38,134 nucleotides of DNA from Pseudolabrys sp. (GTDB lineage: Bacteria; Pseudomonadota; Alphaproteobacteria; Rhizobiales; Xanthobacteraceae): NCBI GenBank assembly GCA_022841665.1, contig JALHRB010000036.1:1-38134 (forward strand), given 5' to 3'. The notes under the pieces were generated by a model that saw only the letters and a program-made list of their open reading frames with translations, was not told where the DNA came from and did no database searches. Shown here one piece after another: positions 8,413 to 36,668 of this stretch; position 1 is the first letter of the stretch, and each line of letters begins with the position of its first letter. The translations under genes were made by a program, and so were the position numbers.

Positions 8413-8551
8413 GCCGTCATCCCGGGCGAGCCAACGGGTCCGCGCGAAGCGCGGCCCGATGACAGGCTCCGCGAAACCCGGGATCCAGTACGCCGTGCCC
8501 TATCGATAGAGTGCGGCGACTGGATCACCCGCCTTCGCGGGCGATGACGGC
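8413..8551. repeat. Intergenic palindromic repeat (GCCGTCATCCCGGG type)
   Basis: The block begins GCCGTCATCCCGGGCGAG and ends CGGGCGATGACGGC, so its ends are inverted copies, with internal palindromes (CCGCGC/GCGCGG and ACCCGC/GCGGGC around CTTC). It fills the gap between the convergent Mo-hydroxylase and Bug genes. It belongs to the general class of dispersed intergenic palindromes in these genomes and may also end transcription, although there is no T-run. Confidence 0.7.
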
Positions 8552-15683: not shown

Positions 15684-15756
15684 CGTTCGTCCCCGCGAAA
15701 GCGGGGACCCAGCGCGGCGTTCCACAACTGGATTCCGCTTGCGCGGGAATGAGCGG
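15684..15756. repeat. CCGCTC-type paired palindrome, gene-less copy (degenerate)
   Basis: Two hairpins face each other: GTCCCCGC-GAAA-GCGGGGAC on the left and ATTCCGC-TTGC-GCGGGAAT followed by GAGCGG on the right. The left outer end has drifted (CGTTCGTCC instead of CCGCTCGTCC) and the right hairpin has lost one base in one arm. Spacing between the hairpins is larger than in the 36.6-kb copy. It lies between convergent genes. Compare the units at 30668, 31074 and 36591. Confidence 0.8.
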
Positions 15757-21866: not shown

Positions 21867-21969
21867 GTCATTCCGGGGCGCGACCGCCAGGTCGCGAACC
21901 CGGAATCCAGTAAGCTGTTCTCGTGGTTCTGGATTCCGGGTTGGCCGCTTCGCGGCGCCCCGGAATGAC
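21867..21969. repeat. Intergenic nested palindrome (GTCATTCCGGGGCGC type)
   Basis: Outer arms TCATTCCGGGGCGC and GCGCCCCGGAATGA enclose inner arms CCCGGAATCCAG and CTGGATTCCGGG. The whole block can fold as a long cruciform. It lies between lepA and the ABC-F gene, both leftward, and touches the false upstream start codon of the ABC-F gene. The CGGAATCCAG core resembles the CGGGAATCCAG of the CCGCTC family, so the families may be related. Confidence 0.75.
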
Positions 21970-27542: not shown

Positions 27543-27640
27543 CCGCTCATTCCCGTACTCGGGTCCAGCCTTTGGCTGGCCCGAGCACAGGCTCCAGCGG
27601 GAATCCAGCACTGGGTCCCCGCTTTCGCGGGGACAAGCGG
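27543..27640. repeat. CCGCTC-type paired palindrome with a second palindrome nested in one hairpin
   Basis: The outer frame is a family copy: CCGCTCATTCCCG on the left, CGGGAATCCAGCAC, then GGGTCCCCGCTTTCGCGGGGAC and AAGCGG on the right. The left hairpin, however, has its loop replaced by about 42 bases (27556-27597) that hold another palindrome, CTCGGG(T)CCAGCC with GGCTGGCCCGAG. This looks like insertion of one palindromic element into the loop of another. It lies between the nucleotidase gene and the ahcY terminator. Confidence 0.8.
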
Positions 27641-30667: not shown

Positions 30668-30703
30668 CCGCTCATTCCCGCGCAAGCGGGAATCCAGCGC
30701 TGA
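30668..30703. repeat. CCGCTC-type palindromic unit, left flank of GIY-YIG element
   Basis: The unit starts CCGCTC, holds the hairpin ATTCCCGC-GCAA-GCGGGAAT and ends CCAGCGCTGA. Its first 33 bases are identical to one half of the gene-less pair at 36591-36652. It lies 12 bases before the hprK start codon (in transcription order) and 10 bases beyond the GIY-YIG stop. Confidence 0.9.
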
Positions 30704-30713
30704 GGTGCTTTCA

Positions 30714-31001
30714 TCAGATTGCGACTTCTTCCCAGAGATCGTTCCATTCTGGATTCCTCGTCTCGATCGCTTGCGTCTTCCAGTGTCGCCGCCATTTCTT
30801 GACCTGGCGCTCGCGAGCGAAGGCTGACTCACGCGAGCTATGCTCTTCGAACCAGACCAGGACCTTCAGTCCGTATCGCTTTGTAAAGCCGTCGATAATA
30901 CCTTCACAATGCTCCCAGACGCGCCGGACAAGGTCGTCGGTCATACCTACATAGATCGTTCCGTTTCGGCGGCTCGCGAGCATGTAGACGTAAAATGCCA
31001 T
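30714..31001 (-). CDS. Small GIY-YIG nuclease-domain protein
   Basis: A 95-residue single-domain GIY-YIG protein of the UPF0213/YhbQ-like class. All catalytic landmarks are present: FYVYMLASRR, then TIYVGMTDDLVRRVWEHC (Tyr, Arg, His) and the metal-binding Glu in FARERQVKKWRRHWK, ending with NPEWNDLWEE. Nothing else is attached, so DNA recognition must come from this domain or from structure. It sits between chvG and hprK on their strand, and inverted 36-bp palindromes bracket it at 10 and 72 bases. No cellular role is established for these short members. The start ATG at 31001 has only a weak ribosome-binding site. The context suggests a selfish or repeat-linked gene. Confidence 0.92.
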   Translation of the reverse strand: MAFYVYMLASRRNGTIYVGMTDDLVRRVWEHCEGIIDGFTKRYGLKVLVWFEEHSSRESAFARERQVKKWRRHWKTQAIETRNPEWNDLWEEVAI

Positions 31002-31073
31002 AGCGAAGGCCTACCCGTTCGCGTCGGTGCAAACGCGCTCGCGCCAAAGCTTATCGTTGAAGGATACTGCTTG

Positions 31074-31109
31074 TCAGCGCTGGACCCCCGCGTTCGCGGG
31101 GGTGAGCGG
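31074..31109. repeat. CCGCTC-type palindromic unit, right flank of GIY-YIG element
   Basis: Inverted relative to the left unit: TCAGCGCTGGACC, hairpin ACCCCCGCG-TT-CGCGGGGGT, then GAGCGG at the outer end. Compared with the left unit (reverse complemented), 30 of 36 bases match; four of the six changes are paired TT/AA to CC/GG substitutions that keep the stem. It lies ten bases beyond the chvG stop codon. Confidence 0.9.
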
Positions 31110-36590: not shown

Positions 36591-36652
36591 CCGCTCGTCC
36601 CCGCGAAAGCGGGGACCCGGCGCTGGATTCCCGCTTGCGCGGGAATGAGCGG
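36591..36652. repeat. CCGCTC-type paired palindrome, intact gene-less copy
   Basis: The cleanest family copy in the window. CCGCTC at the left and GAGCGG at the right are perfect inverted ends. Between them are GTCCCCGC-GAAA-GCGGGGAC and ATTCCCGC-TTGC-GCGGGAAT, each a hairpin, in opposite orientation around a GCGC-containing joint. The right half, reverse complemented, matches the left flank of the GIY-YIG gene over 33 bases. It lies nine bases after pckA. Confidence 0.9.
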
Positions 36653-36668
36653 AGAGAGCAAAGAAAAG

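Follow-up and report, generated by a model that had tools for sequence, protein, structure and literature searches.

A small GIY-YIG nuclease gene between inverted CGTC-type REP units: a candidate mobile element in Pseudolabrys sp.

Why does a small nuclease gene sit between two inverted copies of an abundant hairpin repeat, and could the enzyme be what moves the repeat? The question is raised by a stretch of 38,134 nucleotides (nt) of Pseudolabrys sp. (assembly GCA_022841665.1, contig JALHRB010000036.1), called the window here. Its UPF0213-like GIY-YIG nuclease gene of 95 amino acids (aa) lies on the reverse strand at 30714-31001 and is an intact open reading frame (ORF) with an ATG start, matching Pfam GIY-YIG PF01541 at E 1.6e-15 (57.6 bits, cut-off 22.6). 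A hairpin unit stands to its left on the forward strand (30668-30703, core 30677-30690) and the inverted unit to its right on the reverse strand (31074-31109, core 31087-31100). The two 36-nt units are 83% complementary and 370 nt apart, both fold as hairpins, and the CCA tail of each points at the gene. An earlier note on this DNA had described a complete gene between inverted units, and this description of the locus is confirmed. It had also read the gene-bearing copy as the parent of gene-less pairs, as in the relation between repetitive extragenic palindromic (REP) sequences and REP-associated tyrosine transposases (RAYTs). Our comparisons support that interpretation and suggest that the locus is probably a REP-bounded mobile element, with the GIY-YIG nuclease in the role of the RAYT.

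The core of the unit, CCCGCGNANGCGGG, occurs 191 times (94 + 97 on the two strands) in the 3.85 Mb assembly, whereas the same pattern read backwards occurs 1 + 0 times, so its abundance is far above chance. Among the places listed, copies are often neighbours in the order forward then reverse. The class of the repeat could be recognised. In the parts of their paper drawn on here, Di Nocera et al. (2013; PMC3733652) define CGTC REPs by a stem of 8-9 bp with A-T at the first two positions, a loop of 4-5 nt and a CCA tail, and describe them as inverted dimers found mainly in Alphaproteobacteria and also in Neisseria (dRS3) and Rickettsia (RPE-4/RPE-6). The left window unit, with its 8-bp stem, 4-nt loop and CCA tail, has this form, as do units of its subtype (W) in general; the right window unit starts A-T, then C-G. 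The tag of the window units reads CCGCTC (CGCTC, not CGTC), while the tags of many other clades read CGTC or GTCAT and those of some CGTG or CTTG. Judged by sequence, the window units appear to be CGTC-type REPs with a variant tag.

The W-unit hairpin appears to be under selection. We took 51 distinct W units that adjoin genes at the named-genome loci described below, with no pairing filter. Of their 408 stem cells 365 are paired, while shuffling gave 325 on average and 337 at most; the strength is overstated because the shuffling takes no account of relatedness. The sixth stem pair is C-G in 30 of these units, G-C in 15, A-T in two, T-A in one and unpaired in three. At L098 (genome G017) the flanking units hold a long inner palindrome, near-identical on either side of the gene.

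The flanks of other short GIY-YIG genes were expected by the earlier note to carry such units far more often than random intergenic regions, and they do. A homologue at E <=0.001 is present in 51 of 60 genomes, namely the window's own (G000) and its relatives, with 0 to 10 matches per genome. The 100 stretches fetched around GIY-YIG genes gave 105 gene hits, and each was scored by how well its left 200 nt matched the reversed 200 nt on its right (best local match, threshold at least 16). Inverted flanking units were found at 74 of 94 homologues, compared with 0/848 random intervals and 6/1132 ORFs of the same stretches; among isolated ORFs, those separated from any other ORF by 100 bp or more on either side, there was one in 197. 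The 11 hits outside the 94 are eight fragments or genes with internal stops and three below 85 bits; seven of the 11 score at least 16, including a frame that overlaps a counted gene (L126). When named genomes were searched with the window clade, 127 relatives came up, and the best 80 of these were kept; they lie in Pseudolabrys, Rhodoplanes, Afipia, Bauldia, Caulobacter, Brevundimonas, Parvularculaceae and other groups. Among these 80, inverted units flank the gene at 59 loci against 0/493 random intervals. Nine of the 80 loci repeat the first set (7/9 score at least 16), and without them the count is 52/71.

The hairpin itself differs between homologues. At the nine best loci after the window (one per genome, L012-L020; 59-70% identity) the window unit lies on both sides, facing inward, in seven, on one side in L014 and on neither in L018; the homologue has an internal stop in L013 and L020. 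More distant homologues carry other hairpins in a like arrangement. For this reason a first count at the ten PF01541 loci of the own genome, using only the window core, found flanking units at just two. When the left flank was aligned with the reversed right flank, seven of the ten loci (L001, L002, L004, L006, L007, L008 and L010) were well above all 30 shuffles, and L003, L005 and L009 were not; L009, a 721-aa frame, is probably UvrC. Two GIY-YIG genes lie close together in L133 (G004; 86% alike over 383 nt) and in L051 (G019; 71% alike over 379 nt), which suggests local duplication.

When the genes are ordered by the protein tree, the stem, loop and tail of the unit change with the clade. 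For the 74 genes scoring at least 16, from 33 genomes, protein distance and unit similarity correlate with rho -0.42 (p 0.001). For comparisons between genomes rho is -0.41, and shuffling the units inside each genome brought the mean to -0.06 (p 0.001, the lowest p that 999 permutations allow). In genomes with several genes, the unit of 57 of 60 genes resembles that of the closest protein relative from a different genome more than it resembles, on average, the other units of its own genome. We then removed pairs with homologous neighbourhoods (blastn matches located 400-4500 nt from the gene, 150 nt or longer at 1e-15), and the result held, with rho -0.38 against -0.05 (p 0.001) and 51/60 genes. 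Of the 230 high-similarity unit pairs, 185 have no detected neighbourhood homology, and gene and cognate unit therefore seem to travel together. Several such gene-repeat pairs coexist within one genome.

The core unit is also more abundant where the gene is found, with a median of 100 in 29 genomes with a strong homologue against 26 in seven without (p 0.0002); units of the A type are not raised with any strong homologue (7 vs 7, p 0.14). Beyond the genus, W units reach at least five copies only in G050 and G052, and these are the sole two of 24 genomes with a gene at least 59% identical to that of the window (Fisher p 0.0036). The comparison of unit with nuclease phylogeny that the earlier note had proposed bore it out, unit type tracking the clade at p = 0.001 by within-genome permutation. 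A partnership of gene and unit is well supported by these sequence comparisons and, in our view, very probable.

Gene-less copies of the window unit, also claimed before, are indeed present in the window: an inverted pair at 15684-15755 (cores 15692-15705 on the forward and 15734-15747 on the reverse strand, the latter with one mismatch), another at 36591-36655 (forward core 36600-36613, reverse core 36630-36643, spacer 16 nt) and a single copy on the reverse strand at 27600-27639 (core 27618-27631). In the window and the 100 stretches taken together, two unit types are sampled best, and their gene-less pairs are oriented like the gene-bearing copies: W pairs are forward-reverse in 20 cases and reverse-forward in one, and Z pairs in 19 and none. 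High copy number and inverted pairs in one orientation, which the W units show, are the features of REP doublets forming hairpins (REPINs). Spacers have preferred lengths, 16 nt in 7/20 W pairs and 21-26 nt in 16/19 Z pairs. Z-type pairs occur in at least 21 of the 60 genomes, and the A- and L1-type pairs in the fetched stretches (1 and 2) are too few for an orientation count.

The L1 clade allows the ends of gene-less pairs to be compared with those of its genes. In six L1-clade genes the inward 5' unit terminates in CCATA(A/G)CCAC, and the 3' unit, where present, ends in CCATACG or CCAGACG (in L140, CCATACAC). By pattern search, 55 gene-less L1-type pairs were located, spread over 13 genomes. 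In 49 of them one end is CG-type (3') and the other is not; six pairs lack a CG-type end, and no pair has two. Random re-pairing of the ends gave a mean of 27.4 and a maximum of 41, and 49 was never reached in 20000 trials. Two unlike ends are the pattern expected of internal-deletion derivatives, which supports, for this one clade, the proposal that gene-less pairs descend from a parent with the gene. At least three of the 55 pairs adjoin a GIY-YIG gene (L134 twice, L104 once).

If the gene-bearing segment is mobile, sites without it should exist. At the window locus the flanking genes are presumably chvG and hprK, as the earlier note named them. We compared 30 chvG loci (L141-L170, the window and 29 relatives), seeking the gene by tblastn in the fetched stretch, within 1.5 kb or to the contig end. 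Only gene presence was counted because the stop is misframed in L145, L148 and L153, L159 yielded no hprK, and there is another insertion in L161. The GIY-YIG gene shows in the fetched stretch at two of the 30 loci, the window and G013; junctions without it, which the earlier note had suggested looking for, are thus seen among the relatives. The chvG-hprK junction of several relatives holds different repeat types and may be a place where insertions are favoured.

Two further sites lie outside this group. In Azospirillum lipoferum 4B an element stands between sufB and sufC; A. ramasamyi, A. oryzae and A. sp. B510 are without it and are 95-97% identical around the site. In Sphingobium TomMM7A the element adjoins fnrL, and at this site TomTYG64 and TomTYG74 have one hairpin and TomTYG72 another repeat. 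The TomTYG64 hairpin matches what would remain if the filled copy had lost the DNA between two of its 7-nt repeats, although the change may have run in either direction. Gene and ends at unrelated loci (the 185 of 230 pairs above), together with gene-less sites, are what a transposable element would leave.

A plasmid collection contains 35 records with a match, and among the 14 examined the flanking inverted repeats score at least 18 in ten: Azospirillum, Sinorhizobium meliloti (18, the weakest), Neisseria gonorrhoeae, Novosphingobium, Rhizobium CIAT894, two Shinella, Neorhizobium, Aeromonas and Sphingobium. The flanks do not reach this score in R. tumorigenes, Rhizobium L51/94, Photobacterium or Planktothrix, the last being at shuffle level. 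Two records filed as plasmids, NZ_CP119140.1 (2.17 Mb) and NZ_AP026896.1 (4.94 Mb), are chromosome-sized. On the Planktothrix agardhii plasmid (L180) the homologue has an MmeI-type restriction enzyme on one side and a DISARM gene on the other, and there are other short repeats around it. The N. gonorrhoeae record has 100 exact dRS3 units, and nine fall in the 2 kb surrounding the GIY-YIG gene; this is the densest 2 kb for dRS3 in the record, the highest elsewhere being four. Because the nearest units are not arranged as a simple bracket, clustering is all that this case shows. Phage records gave no match at E 1e-5.

Next, we considered what kind of enzyme the gene encodes. Residues Y6, Y17, R27, H31 and E64 (numbered by the first sequence of the alignment), which we take to be catalytic, are invariant across 33 aligned homologues. 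The structure of the window protein was predicted with a pLDDT of 92.7, and the best Foldseek match was the UPF0213 protein 1zg2 (E 5.2e-5), followed by the branched-DNA nuclease Slx1 (E 0.009) and 1ywl and, lower, by the nuclease domain of UvrC. By sequence profile, 1zg2 (E 1.4e-10) and 1ywl are also the nearest solved chains. Closest sequence and closest fold thus both place the protein in UPF0213/COG2827, the labels COG2827 and YhbQ being our presumption for it; an NCBIfam search gave no match. The model of 95 aa would leave no room for a separate DNA-binding domain. The Y1 partner expected in a REP-RAYT system was not found: the assembly, which is 95% complete, has no Y1 transposase (PF01797) match at E 0.001, other movers not having been searched for. 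A RAYT was set aside as the driver on this ground.

The small mobile element would then consist of a hairpin unit, the GIY-YIG gene and an inverted hairpin unit, the window locus being one copy. The nuclease may recognise its folded cognate hairpin as branched or single-stranded DNA and introduce a nick at its foot; the bounded segment would then be copied into a new intergenic site by the replication or repair machinery of the host. Internal deletion would yield gene-less pairs, and these could be moved in trans, as REPINs are by RAYTs. That the nuclease mobilises the units is, in our assessment, somewhat favoured by the evidence as a whole.

Several observations weigh against this reading. 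The Azospirillum and Sphingobium comparisons showed no clear target duplication, the spacers being too diverged. Flank scores fall below 16 at 20/94 homologues and 21/80 named loci, and four of the 14 plasmid-collection records likewise fall short. Unit-rich genomes wholly lacking such genes, which the earlier note had named as a sign against the link, came up in part: G026 has 73 core units and only one weak match (E 9.7e-5), and G051 has 13 core units and no homologue. T-type gene-less pairs show no orientation preference (2 vs 2). Three of the six L1-clade genes (L045, L104 and L134) have a complete pair upstream, so only the remaining L1 loci are simple brackets. Among the fetched genes, an L1-clade member is found in only four of the 13 genomes with L1 pairs (G004, G027, G031 and G032), and G002 has 15 such pairs and none; G000 and G019 carry an L1-clade gene and no exact L1-type pair. 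Finally, units are more numerous in genomes with genes of the matching clade (medians for W 59 vs 28.5, p 0.014; for A 33 vs 6.5, p 0.002; for T 25 vs 10, p 0.0005; clades assigned by hand, the own-genome A-type remnant left out of the A set), but five of six mismatched combinations likewise show an excess at p < 0.05, one example being A units with T genes (p 0.001). We set this genome-level correlation aside as a weak test of specificity.

GIY-YIG enzymes include homing endonucleases, and the chief rival explanation is free-standing homing, in which the gene enters or adjoins existing REP pairs and another mover shifts the REPs. The persistence of units without a strong homologue, as in G026, would fit this, and so would the complete upstream pairs of L045, L104 and L134, the last with a pair on each side. 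We nevertheless consider homing unlikely. Unit stem, loop and tail track the nuclease clade even without detected neighbourhood homology, which argues that the units travel with the gene; the gene-less pairs retain one end of each kind; and the assembly has no Y1 match that could move the REPs, other movers not having been searched for.

Less probable still is a host repair enzyme that resolves or trims REP hairpins and cruciforms and is kept near its substrates. The predicted fold resembles UvrC and Slx1, and some homologues without units (Caulobacter L214, L217 and L222) may be domesticated. A 2007 Caulobacter repair paper (PMC1839093), in the part drawn on here, reports three small COG2827 genes in Caulobacter crescentus, one of them SOS-boxed, and suggests a role in repair. 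Such a role is hard to reconcile with a copy number that varies between none and ten matches per genome or with the insertion between sufB and sufC, and an enzyme acting in trans would need no bracket of its own repeat subtype. That REPs gather beside genes as terminators or RNA stabilisers and flank this one by chance is very improbable: REPs are mostly intergenic (PMC3733652, as far as drawn on here) and other repeats occupy the chvG-hprK junction of several relatives, but the isolated-ORF control (1/197 against 74/94 homologues) disfavours such crowding, barring a bias in the controls.

A REP-bounded element moved by its nuclease shares features with several known systems. Its gene-less derivatives retain both parental ends, as in miniature inverted-repeat transposable elements (MITEs); the parents of MITEs encode transposases of the DDE or HUH classes, whereas the putative parent enzyme here is a GIY-YIG nuclease. 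I-TevI and I-BmoI have the same catalytic domain and, on the homing side, presumably a nuclease-driven spread, and differ from the window protein in that the latter is a single 95-aa domain, hairpin-bounded and with gene-less derivatives. UPF0213/COG2827/YhbQ-like proteins have the same fold and size, and no element-like context was found in the parts of the literature on them that we drew on. REP/REPIN-RAYT systems are alike in their high-copy inverted hairpin pairs, bracketed gene, gene-less pairs and a repeat type that tracks the enzyme (the RAYT side partly from PMC3733652), and unlike in that their enzyme is a Y1 transposase and that several gene-repeat pairs occur per genome here.

With CGTC REPs the window's left unit shares stem, loop and CCA tail, and both form inverted dimers; the CGCTC tag and the bracketed gene set it apart. 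In the available parts of the 2013 paper (PMC3733652), CGTC REPs "apparently lack a dedicated transposase", and no RAYT or IS200 gene was found flanked by them in the species carrying them. Its authors offered two ideas, that the parents vanished early or that many transposases move CGTC REPs; the term GIY-YIG does not appear in its main text. Among the matches listed in the full-text literature, with subscription journals and bioRxiv outside its scope, no link between GIY-YIG enzymes and REPs was found.

If the pairing is causal, the parents of CGTC REPs survive as small stand-alone nuclease genes, GIY-YIG joins HUH and DDE among the enzymes that drive bacterial repeat families, and the question of the mover can be tested with one protein and one hairpin. 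Several matched nuclease-hairpin pairs within one genus would also form a natural series for recognition studies. Whether the whole CGTC REP superfamily, dRS3 included, owes its movement to small GIY-YIG nucleases is evenly balanced in our view, and with it the existence of a class of mobile elements in which a structure-selective GIY-YIG enzyme, rather than a transposase, would spread hairpin-bounded segments and their gene-less descendants across proteobacteria. Our results suggest that such an unrecognised kind of element could explain a large class of bacterial repeats without a known mover.

The window holds further hairpins of other families. A gene-less inverted pair of the Z type (GTCATTCCGGG...CCCGGAATCCAG) lies at 21867-21969, and a Z-type relative that bears the gene is present in the same genome (G000:C14, L041). 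At 8416-8541 there are two more CGTCAT-tagged sites, in opposite orientations and of a further subtype.
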